DNA of 24,257 nucleotides from positions 1 through 24,257 of the forward strand of contig JALGVQ010000098.1 in NCBI GenBank assembly GCA_025774615.1, read 5' to 3'. Each line of letters begins with the position of its first letter. The stretch's first letter is position 1. Shown one piece after another: positions 8,713 through 24,257 of the stretch. A program made the translations under genes and the position numbers. The notes under the pieces are model-generated. The model was not told where the DNA came from. It searched no databases and worked only from the letters and a program-made list of their open reading frames with translations. The stretch is from a bacterium. GTDB taxonomy: Bacteria; Blakebacterota; Blakebacteria; Blakebacterales; Blakebacteraceae.

Positions 8713-9246
8713 GTGGATGCAGCCGACCGACTGTATGAAGATCTGATAGGCCCTGTTGAGGGCCGCATGAAGAGCGTCGTGGCGGGGATCGTCACTGATC
8801 CCGATGACGCGGCGGACGCCTTTCAGAACGCTCTGGTCTACATCTGGAAGCATCTCAGGAAGATCCATCGCCATCCCAATCCGCACGGCTACATCATCAA
8901 GGTCTGCATCAGTTCGGCGTACGATGTGCTGCGGCAGAGCACGCGCCGGCTGGAGCGGGAGAGTGCCGCATCTGTAGAACCGGAAACGGCGGGGCAGAGC
9001 GATGGGACATCCGACGGCGATCAGCAGGATCAGCAGATAGTGCCACTCATCCGCGAGGGAATCTCCCTGTTACCCAGGAAGCAGGCTCAGGCAGTACTCC
9101 TGCGGCTGCTTGAAGACCAGCAATTCGATGTGATAGGCCGGGTGCTCGGTTGTTCCGAGGTTACCGCCCGTTCCCATGTATCGAAGGGGCTTGCGAGGCT
9201 GCGGGAACATCTGGCGGATCTTGGGCTCAACCCGGCGGAGGGATGA
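8713..9246 (+). CDS. ECF-type RNA polymerase sigma factor
   Basis: 177 residues with the two-domain layout of group 4 sigma factors. Region 2 is around DPDDAADAFQNALVYIWKHL, and region 4 around ISLLPRKQAQAVLLRLLEDQ..IGRVLGCSEVTARSHVSKGLARLREHL, a helix-turn-helix for the -35 element. I chose GTG 8713: AAAGG at 8700-8704 gives an 8-base spacing, whereas the GTG three codons earlier (8704) overlaps that AAAGG and has no site of its own. It directs RNA polymerase to a stress or envelope regulon. The next gene begins 4 bases after its stop and encodes a membrane protein with a cytoplasmic N-terminus, a usual arrangement for sigma and anti-sigma. Confidence 0.88.
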   Translation: MDAADRLYEDLIGPVEGRMKSVVAGIVTDPDDAADAFQNALVYIWKHLRKIHRHPNPHGYIIKVCISSAYDVLRQSTRRLERESAASVEPETAGQSDGTSDGDQQDQQIVPLIREGISLLPRKQAQAVLLRLLEDQQFDVIGRVLGCSEVTARSHVSKGLARLREHLADLGLNPAEG

Positions 9247-9250
9247 CGAG

Positions 9251-10285
9251 ATGGACGAACAGGCTGATGGATCTGATGACCTCACCCGCGCGGTGAGAGG
9301 TATTGTCTCCGACGATCCCCGGGAAGAGGTGGACAGCATGATGGATGAGAGTCTGCGAAGATTCAGGGAAGATCTGACCGATCATCCATACGTGCGCCGG
9401 ATCGAAAGGAAAGGCCGGGTCAGGTCTCGCCCGGTATGGTTCCTGGTGGGACGTCCGGTTCCGGTTCGATGGGCAGCGGCCGCCCTGTCGGTTCTGATCG
9501 TCGTCACGGCCGGGCTTTCACTCAGGCGGCAACCGCTGACTCCCGTTGTCTGGGCAGAGGTGGCCGACCATATGGCTGGTATCGATCGGATGATGTTCAG
9601 CATGCAGGTCAGGATCGGGGAACCGAAGAGTGGCGGAAGGGTGATGTCGGAGCGTCTTCAGGGTGATGCGAAGAGAATGCGGAGTGGCGCGGGGAGTGAG
9701 GCGGGAGCCGCTCCCTCCAGAGGCCGGGGCGCGCAGGCTCCATTATCGGTATCGGTTTCAGAGCCGGCCGTGGAAGAAGCCACCTTGGCGTTCTGGCTCT
9801 CGCGGGAATACGGATTCAGATGGGATGTGCTTACCGATTCACTCCTGGTCTCGAGCATGTTCATTCCTCCTTCAGGTGACTCGATGATCTGGGTGATGCA
9901 CGAGGAGGAGATGTGGGCGAGGCTGCCGGTCGACCGGGAAGAGTCGGGTCAGATGGTGCCTGCCGTCCAGCGGAACCCGGAGGAGTACATCCGGCGGTTC
10001 CTTGCCGGCGGCTACCGTGAGCTGGGAACCTCGGTAATCGACAGTACCGAAGTGGTGGGGATCGAAGTCGATGATCCCCCGGCCGGCGATGGTGCGGTGC
10101 TCGATGGAGTGGGGAGGCTCTGGGTGGATGTCCTCAGCAGCCTGCCGGTGCGACTCGAGCTGCGCGGCCAGGTCGGCGGAAGCGACCTGCAGTGGGTGTT
10201 CGATTTCCGCTGGGGGGAGCAGGTCGATCCCGACAGGTTCAACCCGGTGATCCCGCCAGGATTCTCGCCGCTACCGCCCCTGTAG
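9251..10285 (+). CDS. Single-pass membrane protein, probable anti-sigma factor with LolA/RseB-like periplasmic domain
   Basis: 344 residues. An acidic, helical N-terminal part (about 1-70) would be cytoplasmic. One transmembrane helix lies near 74-91 (WAAAALSVLIVVTAGLSL), and a 250-residue periplasmic part follows. The latter starts VVWAEVADHMAGIDRMMFSMQV, and near its end LWVDVLSSLPVRLEL recalls LolA/RseB-fold proteins (inference). No clear zinc-binding ZAS motif (HxxxCxxC) is present, so the anti-sigma role rests on gene order and topology. ATG 9251 has GGAGGGA at 9237-9243, overlapping the end of the sigma gene, so the two are translationally coupled. An upstream in-frame ATG at 9176 would overlap the sigma gene by 70 bases and is disfavoured. 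Confidence 0.75.
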   Translation: MDEQADGSDDLTRAVRGIVSDDPREEVDSMMDESLRRFREDLTDHPYVRRIERKGRVRSRPVWFLVGRPVPVRWAAAALSVLIVVTAGLSLRRQPLTPVVWAEVADHMAGIDRMMFSMQVRIGEPKSGGRVMSERLQGDAKRMRSGAGSEAGAAPSRGRGAQAPLSVSVSEPAVEEATLAFWLSREYGFRWDVLTDSLLVSSMFIPPSGDSMIWVMHEEEMWARLPVDREESGQMVPAVQRNPEEYIRRFLAGGYRELGTSVIDSTEVVGIEVDDPPAGDGAVLDGVGRLWVDVLSSLPVRLELRGQVGGSDLQWVFDFRWGEQVDPDRFNPVIPPGFSPLPPL

Positions 10286-10324: not shown

Positions 10325-11691
10325 CTATGGTCGGGGCGGATATGCCGGTCGGGCATGGGCGATCTCCGGCCACCACTCCTCGAAACTGAAGCGCTCCGGC
10401 CGGTGGTGGCACTGTCGACAGGTCTCCGCGGTCGGTGTCATCCCGCCGTTGGCCAGGAATCTCCTCCGGTCGATCATGATACCTTCATCCATGTACACAG
10501 AGCCCGGTCCGTGGCAGGTCTCACATCCGACACCTTCCTCCCGCCTGAAACCGGGTGTGAACCGGGCATCGGGATCATGACCACCGGTGATATGACATCT
10601 CAGGCACCTCTCCTCCTCGATCGGATCGGAGATATCCTGATATTCCTCCCGCAGGGAGGCGAGATACCGGGCCCAGTCGGTTGCCAGCCGCCAGTAGGCC
10701 GCGGCATGCTGACTGCTGAGCCAGGTGAGGTACTGGTTGCCGTGTTCCTAGCCCGCATGGCAGGTACCGCATGTGGCTGAACCGACATATGTATACGGGT
10801 GATCCACACCTGCGTTCCTGGTGCCGGTGACCGTACGGCGCAGGAATGTTACCTGGATCTCCGCCACAGTACCCACATCGTTCCGGATGAAGGTCACCCT
10901 CCACGGTTCCTGTCGGCAGTAGAAGATATGTAGAAGATATCCCCACCGATCGCGTACAGTTCATCAGGAGCGAACTCCATGAGATGGAGGATGCCCTCTT
11001 CCAGCCATACCGTCATGCTGTACCCGCCGCCCAGATTGTATTCGCCGGAATACTCCGCCAGACGATCGGGCTCGAGCGGTATCGGATCGGGTCTGGTGAA
11101 GGCATGATCCGCGGGACGCCGTCCATCGTTGTCACGTATGGTGGTCGAGGCCCCTCCTGTCACCAGCAGATCGACGCACTCCGGCTGTCCGCTCATGTAT
11201 GCGACGTGCAGTGGTGTCCACCCTTCAAGGGTTGTCGCATCCGGATCGGCTCCCTGATCGAGCAGCAGGGTGGCGACCCCGGTACATCCACGGCGGATCG
11301 AGACGTGCAGCGGTGTGCGACCCCACTGGTTCTGGATCGAGATGTCGGCGCCCCGTTCGATGAGGAGACCGACCATGTCAGGCCGATCATGATGAGCGGC
11401 CCGGTGCAGGACAGTGCCTCCATCCCCTCCGATATGATCCACGTCAGCGTCGGTGTCGAGAAGGAGGGAAAGGATGTCCCAATGGCCTCGGGTCGCAGCC
11501 CAGTTCAGTGCGGTGTACCCGAGGTCATCGACTGCGTCTACAAGTGAGGGGTCGCTTTCAACGATTATCCGGACTTCCTCGGTCCTTCCCGCCTTGACCA
11601 GGTCGAAGAGGTCAGGGGGGGCGTCCCCGTCCTGCGCAGAGGAGGGCAGAGTGAGGAGCGATGCCAGTACGACTCGGGTAATGATATTCAT
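10325..11691 (-). pseudogene. Broken fusion: signal peptide, ankyrin repeats, DUF3471-like domain, cytochrome c554-type tetrahaem domain
   Basis: The intact frame from ATG 11691 encodes a signal peptide (MNIITRVVLASLLTLPSSAQ), five to six ankyrin repeats (about 11610-11070) and the start of a DUF3471-like beta domain (EYSGEYNLGGGYSMTVWLEE). An 11-bp perfect tandem duplication (10919-10929 and 10930-10940) then shifts the frame and stops it at 10894. With one copy removed the frame continues through FYCRQEPWRVTFIRNDVGTV into a cytochrome c554-type domain. That domain has four CxxCH haem sites: CGTCH (10757-10771), CLRCH (10592-10606), CETCH (10511-10525) and CRQCH (10406-10420). A single amber codon at 10748-10750, between CGTCHAG and EHGNQY and probably a former CAG, breaks this part. 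Repaired length would be 451 residues. The cytochrome half has no signal peptide of its own, which supports one fused exported protein. Family names are from pattern recognition. Confidence 0.82.
10919..10940. repeat. 11-bp perfect tandem duplication causing a frameshift
   Basis: GTAGAAGATAT occurs twice head to tail. Removing one unit restores a single reading frame between the ankyrin/DUF3471-like part and the tetrahaem cytochrome part of the minus-strand gene. Confidence 0.93.
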
Positions 11692-11695
11692 GATG

Positions 11696-11797
11696 CTAGC
11701 GTCCCGTTACGTAGCAAATATGTGCATCGAGAGCGGTGGGCATCAGGCAGGCGCCGAGCAGAAGGGATCCGGCAAGAAGGGGCAGGGTCGAACGCAT
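11696..11797 (-). CDS. Possible 33-residue lipoprotein-like peptide
   Basis: ATG 11797 follows GGGAG (11806-11810) with 8-base spacing and encodes MRSTLPLLAGSLLLGACLMP then TALDAHICYVTGR. A charged start, hydrophobic core and lipobox-like LGAC make a plausible exported mini-lipoprotein, or the signal peptide of a gene since lost. It ends 4 bases before the ankyrin-cytochrome start, so both would share a transcript. Too short to judge by codon use. Confidence 0.45.
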   Translation of the reverse strand: MRSTLPLLAGSLLLGACLMPTALDAHICYVTGR

Positions 11798-12772: not shown

Positions 12773-12836
12773 GTGCCCTGTCACGAAACAACTGTGGCAT
12801 GCGAGCGGCGCTGACATCAGCCGCGTGACAGGACAC
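12773..12836. terminator. Nested inverted repeats between convergent genes, possible bidirectional terminator
   Basis: Outer arms GTGCCCTGTCACG (12773-12785) and CGTGACAGGACAC (12824-12836) match as a 13-bp inverted repeat with one mismatch. Inside, GCTGA (12810-12814) and TCAGC (12817-12821) form a second hairpin. The structure reaches the rocD stop codon and sits between two convergent genes, as expected for a shared terminator, but neither side has a T-run. Confidence 0.55.
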
Positions 12837-14041
12837 TAGTCAGTCAGAACCTTCCGTATCCGCTCGAACGCCCACTCGAGGTCATCTCTGCCGATCACGA
12901 GTGGGGGCGCGAATCGGATAACATTCTCGTGCGTCTCCTTGCAGAGCAGTCCCTCTTCCTGAAGTGCTTCGCAGTACGGTCGCGCGGGTTCATCCAGTTC
13001 CAATCCGATGAAGAGACCCCGACCACGGATCTCCCTGATGTGAGGGCTCTCGATGGTGCGAAGCTGTTCGAGGAACCAGGCCCCGAGTTCAGCGCTCCGT
13101 TCCGCCAACCGTTCCTCCTCGATCACCTCGAGCGCGGCCAGGGCGATGGCACAGCCGAGGGGATTGCCTCCGAACGTGCTTCCGTGGTCACCGGGGGTGA
13201 AGACGTCCATCACTTCCCTGCTGGCGAGGAACGCCGATACCGGGTAGAAGCCGCCAGAGAGTGCCTTGCCGACGATCAGACCATCGGGAACGACATCCTC
13301 GTACTGGTAGGCAAAGAGCTTGCCGCAACGTCCAAGACCTGACTGTATCTCATCGAAAATCAACAGGACATTCCGCTCCCTGCAGAGCCTGCCGGCGGCC
13401 GCGAGGTAGCCTTCCGGAGGAATGCGGATACCCGCTTCACCCTGGATCGGTTCAACGACGAAGGCGCAGGTGTTCGGTGTGATCGCCGCCTCGAGTGCCT
13501 CGATGTCACCATAATCTGCCATGACGAAACCGGGAGTCAGGGGACCGAATCCATCCCGATACTGCTCTTCAGTGGATGCAGAGATGATGCTGATAGTGCG
13601 CCCGTGAAAATTGTCGCTGCAGACGATGATCTCCTGTGATCCGCCTGCGATCCCCTTGACCTTCTCACCCCACTTCCGGGCCGCCTTGAAGGCAGTTTCC
13701 ACCGCCTCGGCACCAGAGTTCATCGGAAGGGAGACGTCCATGCCGCTCATCTCATGGAGCTTCCGGTAGAGCAGGGGGAGTTGATCGTTGCGGAACGCCC
13801 TGCTCGTCAGTGTGATGCGTGCCATCTGTCCGATCGCGGCTTCACGGATCCGCGGATGGCAGTGCCCCTGGTTCACGGCTGAGTAAGCGGCCAGGAAATC
13901 GAGGTATTTGTTGCCATCCACATCCCACACCCAGATACCCTCGGCCCGGTTGATGATGACATCGAGGGGATGGTAGTTGTTGGCGCCTAACTCGTTTTCG
14001 ACCGCGATGCAGTCAGCTGGTGAGAGCGGGGAGGAACTCAC
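12836..14041 (-). CDS. rocD: Ornithine aminotransferase (ornithine--oxo-acid transaminase)
   Basis: 401-residue class III PLP aminotransferase converting ornithine and 2-oxoglutarate to glutamate semialdehyde and glutamate. The opening ENELGANNYHPLDVIINRAE is diagnostic for RocD/OAT. PLP contacts include D230 in FDEIQSG and the Schiff-base lysine K259 in VGKALSGGFYP, with GHCHP and the EPIQGEAG loop also conserved. I place the start at GTG 14041: AAAGGA (14055-14050) precedes it by 8 bases. A TTG six codons upstream (14059) has no such site. It links arginine/ornithine breakdown to proline or glutamate. It is divergent from the ABC exporter and convergent with the small membrane gene; no other arginine-pathway gene is adjacent. 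Confidence 0.95.
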   Translation of the reverse strand: MSSSPLSPADCIAVENELGANNYHPLDVIINRAEGIWVWDVDGNKYLDFLAAYSAVNQGHCHPRIREAAIGQMARITLTSRAFRNDQLPLLYRKLHEMSGMDVSLPMNSGAEAVETAFKAARKWGEKVKGIAGGSQEIIVCSDNFHGRTISIISASTEEQYRDGFGPLTPGFVMADYGDIEALEAAITPNTCAFVVEPIQGEAGIRIPPEGYLAAAGRLCRERNVLLIFDEIQSGLGRCGKLFAYQYEDVVPDGLIVGKALSGGFYPVSAFLASREVMDVFTPGDHGSTFGGNPLGCAIALAALEVIEEERLAERSAELGAWFLEQLRTIESPHIREIRGRGLFIGLELDEPARPYCEALQEEGLLCKETHENVIRFAPPLVIGRDDLEWAFERIRKVLTD

Positions 14042-14154
14042 GGTTCTGATCCTTTGCAATGATGGCGACAGTGATCGATGCGCTGCTTCAGGCAGAGCGA
14101 TAACTGGATGAAGAGAACGTCCTTATGTTCCGTATATTATGATATTCGTGCCAC

Positions 14155-22930: not shown

Positions 22931-23455
22931 CTACGGCGTGATGAAATAAAGGGATGTTCTGGCGCGTGGTGTGTTGACTTCGAGATCCAGTTGCGGGATG
23001 CGGACCTTGCCCTGGAGGATGAGGTCGAGCGATTCGACATCCGGATACTCCCAATTCCAGCTCCGTCCGTCATTGTCGGTGAGCGGCAGGTCGAATCCGA
23101 GCACGACGAAGTACCCCCACTTGAGATCATCGATCGGGCCGTCGAAGGTCTTCGAATTTTCAATCACCACTTTCCTGGTGGGATCCCGGGCCAGAAAGAC
23201 GCTGATGTCGACAGAGACATCATACGGTGCGGGCAGAACCCATGAATCGATCTCATTGCTCATGTTGGTGATCTTGACAGAGAAATCAGGACTGAGCCGC
23301 ACCACGTCCGCTCGCCATAGCTGCGCATTGACGATGATCCCGGCAGAGAGGGGGGTGTCAGGTTCCTCATAGGCCGGTAGTGTTTCCTGGCAGGCCGACA
23401 GGAGCATGACTACCGGCAGGAGCGTGACCAGCAGGAGGAGTCGGATGTGCTTCAT
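22931..23455 (-). CDS. Lipoprotein of unknown function (paralogue B)
   Basis: 174 residues. The signal ends in a lipobox (LLSAC, Cys22), then QETLPAYEEPDTPL and a beta-rich domain. It shares with the upstream gene the motifs LPAYEEP, LA-x-DPTRKV, KTFD-x-P, a DG-R-WNW stretch and the same overall length, so the pair arose by tandem duplication. The motifs suggest an immunoglobulin-like fold (inference). ATG overlaps the stop of the upstream gene as ATGA, indicating coupled synthesis, possibly as a complex with the TonB receptor. Last gene of its operon. Confidence 0.85.
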   Translation of the reverse strand: MKHIRLLLLVTLLPVVMLLSACQETLPAYEEPDTPLSAGIIVNAQLWRADVVRLSPDFSVKITNMSNEIDSWVLPAPYDVSVDISVFLARDPTRKVVIENSKTFDGPIDDLKWGYFVVLGFDLPLTDNDGRSWNWEYPDVESLDLILQGKVRIPQLDLEVNTPRARTSLYFITP

Positions 23456-24000
23456 GGCGTGCCGGTCGCAGTGTCGTAGATGAACATGACCCGCACCTGC
23501 GGCATGTTGATGCTGCTCAGTACACGACCATCCTTTCTCAGGATCAGGCGGCCCTGAAAGAGCAGTTCATGCCGGGGTTCGGAAGACCTCAGCCAGTTCC
23601 AGGGCCGTCCTTCGCCATCCTGCATCGGAAAGGGGACCTCTACCCAGACAGATCCGCCCACCGCCAGGGTATCAGAGGGGCTATCGAAGGTCTTTTTCAC
23701 CGTCAGAAATACCTTGCGGGTCGGATCTTGCGCCAGCGAGACGCTGACATTCGCCTCGATCTCGAATGGGGGGAAGAGGACGTACTGCATCGATCCGTCA
23801 TCGATGTTCTCGAGATAGACAGAGAAAGGCGCGGGCTGCGGTACGAAGAGCGACCCCATATCTATCACACTGTCGACCAGTATCCGCGCCTGCAGGGGGA
23901 TCGAGGGTTCCTCATAGGCCGGCAGCTGCTCCTGACATCCGCAGAGAGCGCAGGATGATATCAGGATGGACACAGCTGGTATGATGAGCGACCGGCACAT
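23452..24000 (-). CDS. Lipoprotein of unknown function (paralogue A)
   Basis: 182 residues from ATG 24000, which shares one base with the stop of the upstream receptor gene (TGATG). A longer frame to 24048 would overlap that gene and hide the signal peptide. The leader MCRSLIIPAVSILISSCALCGC contains lipobox LCGC, followed by QEQLPAYEEPSIPL. The mature domain parallels paralogue B (LAQDPTRKV, KTFDSP, EGRPWNW). Likely surface or periplasmic accessory to the receptor. Function unknown; the fold guess is beta-sandwich. Confidence 0.85.
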   Translation of the reverse strand: MCRSLIIPAVSILISSCALCGCQEQLPAYEEPSIPLQARILVDSVIDMGSLFVPQPAPFSVYLENIDDGSMQYVLFPPFEIEANVSVSLAQDPTRKVFLTVKKTFDSPSDTLAVGGSVWVEVPFPMQDGEGRPWNWLRSSEPRHELLFQGRLILRKDGRVLSSINMPQVRVMFIYDTATGTP

Positions 24001-24257
24001 CAGAATCGCATCTCCAGCCCGAACCGGATCCTCCTGCCGATCCTCCACGCTCCCGGATCACTCAGCTCTCCGCCGATGCGGCCGTCACTGGCGATCCAGA
24101 TGATATTCTGCCGGTCTGTCAGATTCCTGATGTCCACAAAGAGGGCCACCTCGGTCTCACTGCCGCCGAGCGTGAGGGGAATCCCCTTTCTCAGGCGGGC
24201 GTCGATCTGGAATATTTCTTTCATGCGCGCGTTGTTCGGCTCCACCACAGTGCCTTC
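24000..24257 (-). CDS. TonB-dependent receptor, C-terminal fragment (start outside window)
   Basis: The frame is open to the window edge, giving 85 residues. The text IFQIDARLRKGIPL, VALFVDIRNLTDRQNI, GAWRIGRRIRFGLEMRF is typical of the last barrel strands of TonB-dependent outer-membrane receptors, with the terminal Phe needed for BAM recognition. Substrate unknown. Its stop overlaps the start of the first lipoprotein, so receptor and both lipoproteins form one operon. Confidence 0.85.
   Translation of the reverse strand, partial: EGTVVEPNNARMKEIFQIDARLRKGIPLTLGGSETEVALFVDIRNLTDRQNIIWIASDGRIGGELSDPGAWRIGRRIRFGLEMRF

Follow-up and report, generated by a model that had tools for sequence, protein, structure and literature searches.

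Multihaem electron carriers usually meet their partners by diffusion or in complexes. Among solved structures, the one nearest to the cytochrome described here is cytochrome c554 of Nitrosomonas europaea (1bvb/1ft5, E 3.8e-9); its distal histidines in 1ft5 are, we assume, H27, H102 and H179, with H102 serving as the distal ligand of haem 1. Ankyrin repeats are known from another haem setting, in which exported ankyrin proteins interact with haem catalases and promote them, stabilising the enzymes or aiding haem binding (PMC10294975). In the window, i.e., the whole 24,257-nucleotide stretch of bacterial DNA that was analysed, ankyrin repeats and a c554-type cytochrome belong, together with a beta domain, to one broken gene. 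All three domains are known, and the joined architecture is apparently undescribed: the combination was not found described in the open-access literature searched (a scope outside which most subscription journals lie), and Pfam and NCBIfam hold no curated family for it.

The broken gene and its domains

The original prediction had read a 451-codon fusion through two lesions, and its coordinates, both lesions and the length of the frame all proved exact on re-check. The read-through frame starts with MNIITRVVLASLLTLPSSAQDGD, occupies minus-strand positions 11691 to 10325 and encodes 451 residues, composed as follows.

10325..11691, minus strand: whole broken gene, i.e., signal peptide, ankyrin repeats, lipocalin-like (DUF3471-like) domain and tetrahaem c554-type cytochrome (read-through frame and intact homologues)
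11632..11691, minus strand: Sec-type signal peptide MNIITRVVLASLLTLPSSAQ, lipobox not seen (sequence, by eye)
11104..11613, minus strand: ankyrin repeats, four Ank stretches above threshold (Pfam PF12796/PF00023)
10811..11094, minus strand: DUF3471-like lipocalin-type beta domain, interrupted by the duplication (Pfam 26.1 bits against 29.3, and homologue domain model)
10919..10940, minus strand: 11-bp exact tandem duplication, two copies of ATATCTTCTAC (10940-10930 and 10929-10919), shifting the frame (sequence)
10346..10801, minus strand: c554-type tetrahaem cytochrome domain (PF13435, 48.8 bits, cut-off 20.8)
10757..10771, minus strand: haem site 1, CGTCH (sequence)
10748..10750, minus strand: in-frame TAG stop, seven codons past the start of the first CxxCH (sequence)
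10592..10606, minus strand: haem site 2, CLRCH (sequence)
10511..10525, minus strand: haem site 3, CETCH (sequence)
10406..10420, minus strand: haem site 4, CRQCH (sequence)

In the read-through product, Pfam detected Ank_2 (E 4e-32) and Cytochrome_C554 (E 1.4e-12), both above their cut-offs, the ankyrin part scoring 111 bits against 27.3 (PF12796, PF00023) and the cytochrome 48.8 bits with PF13435, compared with 47-51 bits in intact homologues and a cut-off of 20.8. When the codons of the 3' part were shuffled, a mean of 0.017 CxxCH motifs was obtained, and four were reached in none of 20,000 trials. Since, in addition, intact homologues continue across both lesion sites (see below), the frame in the window is not a product of chance. 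All four CxxCH sites are intact after repair, as had been predicted, and start at 10771, 10606, 10525 and 10420. By eye, the N-terminus looks like a Sec signal in the window copy and in all homologues, and export is thus predicted for the whole family.

The ankyrin repeats were modeled well in one homologue (L039; pLDDT mostly 75-96), while the AlphaFold model of the whole protein had a mean pLDDT of 57.8 and was set aside, as it was too poor beyond the ankyrin part. For the DUF3471-like domain, the original assignment held at the level of the fold and not at that of the Pfam score: DUF3471 (PF11954) reached 26.1 bits in the window and 24.8 bits or less in the homologues, below the cut-off of 29.3. 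Folded alone from six homologues, the domain gave a confident barrel (pLDDT 84), whose top VIA-align matches were the C-terminal domains of IS11 esterase (Z 12.2), the PBP-type cyclase Ulm16 (Z 11.6), D-aminopeptidase (Z 11.0) and SurE (Z 10.3), whereas generic lipocalins and fatty-acid-binding proteins scored lower (Z 6-8). Judging from this model, the middle domain has the fold of the lipocalin-like C-terminal domain of serine beta-lactamase-like hydrolases. As a separate observation, the beta domain has weak sequence matches in the phylum of L044, among them, as read by eye, beta-lactamase-like proteins with a pair of such domains (L089, L094) and a frame (L090:1-1770, plus strand) in which ankyrin repeats appeared to be followed by a domain of the serine beta-lactamase-like type and a pair of DUF3471-like barrels.

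The cytochrome domains of fusion and unfused proteins have in common the four CxxCH sites, a His after haem 1, a C-terminal His and a Met in the motif CHGPGxxYxxxx(I/V)M, close to which the haem ligand H102 of c554 presumably lies. Compared with 1ft5, the H27-type and the C-terminal H179-type His are conserved, while the H102 position carries no His and an invariant Met stands nearby; the ligation itself is unreadable from sequence, and His/Met ligation of haem 1 is a prediction. Two proteins depart from the rule at this very place: the unfused relative L011 carries a His at about the position of the Met that follows CHGPG in nearly all other members, and the cytochrome domain of L045 is without this Met. 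They offer a natural test of which residue is the ligand of haem 1. With respect to the curated equivalogs, the nitrifier c554 model (NF043010, cut-off 400 bits) gave 26.2 bits with L039 and 25.7 bits with L044, and the UshA-like PCGU model (NF041198, cut-off 275 bits) gave 57 bits, from the cytochrome tail only.

Intact homologues, origin and distribution

When the cytochrome part was searched against named prokaryote genomes, six close relatives (L039-L044; 53-62% identical) were retrieved, and in all six a single uninterrupted frame led from a signal peptide through ankyrin repeats and the beta domain to the fourth haem site. A profile search added a seventh intact fusion (G551/L067). The seven proteins are 436-460 amino acids long and 47-83% identical among themselves, and all of them, like the window copy, contain four CxxCH sites. 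The domain combination is therefore genuine, being intact in a few other uncultured bacteria. The fusion claimed in the original prediction was borne out, with all seven homologues reading uninterrupted across both junctions and with a single clade of cytochrome domains; homologues encoding the parts always as two genes, or a lack of any homologue spanning the junction, were not what we found, and the seven single frames rule out two separate genes. Matches to Legionella Ank effectors were also rejected, since they covered ankyrin repeats only and lay far below the cut-offs.

L039-L041 are Gemmatimonadota metagenome-assembled genomes; L042-L044 are metagenome-assembled as well, with L043/L044 representing a second phylum. 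Between these groups, RpoB is 57-61% and the fusion 49-54% identical. In a maximum-likelihood tree of eight fusion and 22 unfused cytochrome domains, a branch supported at 100/100 set all fusions apart from the unfused domains. A single fusion origin is thus the simplest reading, and the fusion probably arose once and was kept.

For frequency counts, a profile was built from six sequences, and full-length fusions were counted. They were present in three of 395 sampled genomes of the phylum Gemmatimonadota and in 3/80 of the phylum of L043/L044, while the 386 genomes drawn around the window contained none except the broken window copy. The fusion is rare, and its distribution across the sampled genomes is patchy. 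Horizontal transfer and vertical descent were weighed against this pattern, the RpoB and fusion identities and the GC3 of the window copy, and neither was favored. Among 72,556 plasmids, no match reached 80% of the fusion query, and no relative was found in viral contigs, so that spread by plasmids or viruses is unsupported. In one of 24 loci checked, that of the distant genome G026 (L032:1975-3589, minus strand), an exported ankyrin gene (220 aa) precedes an unfused tetrahaem c554 gene of the same orientation by about 320 bp; the pair may represent this partnership without fusion, or else mere chance.

State of the window copy and its locus

Within the whole window, exact tandem repeats with units of 8-30 bp occur only twice, one of them being the 11-bp duplication. 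The residue at the position of the TAG is variable among the homologues. In an alignment of the eight fusions, the window copy departs at 16 of 141 columns that are invariant in the other seven copies, as compared with 10-12 departures per approximately 136 invariant columns in equally diverged intact copies (Fisher p 0.55, window versus closest). Its GC3 resembles that of the neighboring genes, and the 16 neighbors examined are all open. As the conservation of the window copy is near that of equally diverged intact copies, the lesions are recent, or else they are errors; advanced decay is unsupported by these figures. The recent date proposed in the original prediction agrees with this comparison, with the survival of all four haem sites and with the open neighbors. 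Most likely, then, the window copy is a recently inactivated pseudogene of an accessory gene and, since it is broken twice, its product would at best be a truncated ankyrin protein with the beta domain cut and without the cytochrome.

That the lesions are assembly or sequencing errors in a gene intact in the organism we regard as unlikely, though deserving some weight. Speaking for it are the genome, a metagenome assembly of 324 contigs at 82% completeness, the intactness of all four haem sites, and a conservation that does not fall clearly short of that in intact copies. On the other hand, two independent lesions 170 bp apart would have had to fall within one gene while the 16 neighbors examined are open, an exact 11-bp duplication is the signature of slippage, unlike base-calling error, and the gene is wholly missing at the sister locus (G001), in line with a relaxed need for it. 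It is hardly credible that the broken state is itself functional, with stop readthrough, TAG recoding or programmed frameshifting yielding some full-length product. The good conservation of both parts of the protein would speak for it; however, TAG is the ordinary stop of 10 of the 16 window genes, which rules out recoding, the frameshift is due to a private 11-bp duplication found in no homologue, and no homologue has a stop or shift at these places. Recent inactivation thus remains the preferred reading, and the window gene should not be read as functional: its lineage is losing the fusion or has lost it.

The sister locus was delimited by two anchors.

9176..10285, plus strand: convergent neighbor of 369 aa without a Pfam family, marking the left side of the empty G001 site (Pfam scan, synteny)
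12836..14059, minus strand: class-III aminotransferase, marking the right side of the empty G001 site (Pfam scan, synteny)

G001 is a relative of the same genus (RpoB 91% identical) in which the flanking genes stand in the same order, with 72-78% DNA identity, and the fusion gene is absent; the window stretch from about 10,280 to about 11,730 corresponds there to some 40-70 bases. The fusion gene is thus dispensable in the window's genus. The difference may stem from loss in G001 or from gain in the window lineage; neither G002 nor G003 contains the locus in full.

Two further observations were made in the window. An ORF of 33 codons (11696-11797, minus strand), which encodes a signal peptide (MRSTLPLLAGSLLLGACLMPTALDAHICYVTGR) and hardly anything else, stops a few bases short of where the broken gene starts; at the empty site of G001, its 5' part is retained with another tail (43 aa). 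The ORF might be what is left of a deleted exported protein, or it might encode a small exported peptide. Moreover, two adjacent exported lipoprotein-like ORFs (22931-23455 and 23452-24048, minus strand) share CQE(T/Q)LPAYEEP near the N-terminus and, by this motif, are apparently a tandem duplicate.

Proposed function and comparison with known systems

We consider it reasonably probable that the window holds a recently inactivated copy of an accessory gene, whose family encodes an exported tetrahaem carrier held to a partner by an ankyrin/lipocalin scaffold. The family product would be a soluble exported electron carrier. Its signal peptide would direct the chain into the periplasm, where the cell's c-type cytochrome machinery would attach four haems at the CxxCH sites, both steps following from the anatomy of the protein. 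The ankyrin repeats and the lipocalin-like barrel would then keep the tetrahaem domain docked on a specific partner, which would allow electrons to pass locally and not by diffusion. The genome of the window encodes haem c assembly proteins (two PF01578 proteins above the cut-off); the contig that bears them also carries an unfused tetrahaem c554 (190 aa) and further multihaem cytochromes, and the genome can therefore probably make c-type cytochromes. A cluster in this genome, G000:C34:9776-12716 (L033:277-3217, minus strand), comprises an unfused tetrahaem c554 and a pair of large multihaem cytochromes, lies next to a TolC-like gene and shares its contig with haem c assembly genes; G001 has part of this cluster (L034).

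We infer docking from what ankyrin repeats do, and the partner and the function are likewise putative. The protein-bound redox module of the original prediction is plausible in this sense, although no partner emerged from the neighborhood: across phyla, no gene is conserved beside the fusion, and the neighbors of L039, L040, L043 and L044 differ, except that G102 and G551 both encode, downstream of the fusion, large exported proteins related to each other. The fusion looks like a stand-alone gene.

It is also conceivable, if quite improbable, that the ankyrin-lipocalin portion handles haem as a chaperone of the fused cytochrome instead of forming a docking scaffold, in the manner of AnkB and Cj1386 next to catalases. 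The promotion of haem catalases by exported ankyrin proteins (PMC10294975) would speak for this, a lipocalin-type barrel could hold a hydrophobic ligand, and the ankyrin part contains invariant His and Cys residues in the six aligned intact copies. However, the invariant His residues belong mostly to the normal TPLHxA ankyrin motif, and the ankyrin Cys of the other seven copies is replaced by Ala in the window copy. Furthermore, c-type haems are attached covalently by dedicated assembly proteins, which are present in the window genome, and cytochromes c554 are not known to need a dedicated chaperone. We therefore retain the docking scaffold as the preferred reading.

A carrier linked in one chain to a protein-binding scaffold, conserved in at least two phyla besides the window lineage, offers a handle on a periplasmic redox partner. 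As a long shot, the fusions might even constitute a distinct class of docked carriers, in which the ankyrin/lipocalin head is specific for one periplasmic partner and haem 1 of the tetrahaem tail is unusual, either His/Met-ligated via the invariant Met or with an open site; if so, the fusion would be more than a wire and act as a redox enzyme or a sensor.

Compared with known systems, the cytochrome part resembles Nitrosomonas europaea c554 (PF13435; PDB 1bvb, 1ft5, 1ft6) in its four CxxCH sites, in CHGPG after haem 3 and in the HAxA His after haem 1, and differs from it in being placed behind ankyrin and lipocalin-like domains. It is 36-43% identical over the domain to small unfused tetrahaem c554-like cytochromes (e.g., that of G000:C34, 190 aa), with which it shares the same four haem sites and the same C-terminal IxH and IM motifs; unlike these stand-alone genes, the fusions lie on a separate side of the tree and have in common YWRLAT(D/G)W, 3-4 additional residues inserted ahead of haem 2 and a C-terminal part that is shortened. 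The UshA-like (seleno)protein with a C-terminal cytochrome (NF041198; L045) likewise has a c554-like tail following an N-terminal domain of unrelated type, which in this case is, however, 5'-nucleotidase-like. The middle domain is like the small lipocalin-like domains of IS11 esterase (7spn), Ulm16 (8fek), SurE (6ksv) and D-aminopeptidase (1ei5), with Z values of 10-12, whereas in the fusion it comes without a hydrolase, between ankyrin repeats and a cytochrome. Finally, like AnkB and the Cj1386-type proteins, the fusion is an exported ankyrin protein that would work with a haem protein (PMC10294975); in those systems, the two are separate genes and the enzyme carries b-type haem, whereas in the fusion both parts are joined in one chain with c-type haems.
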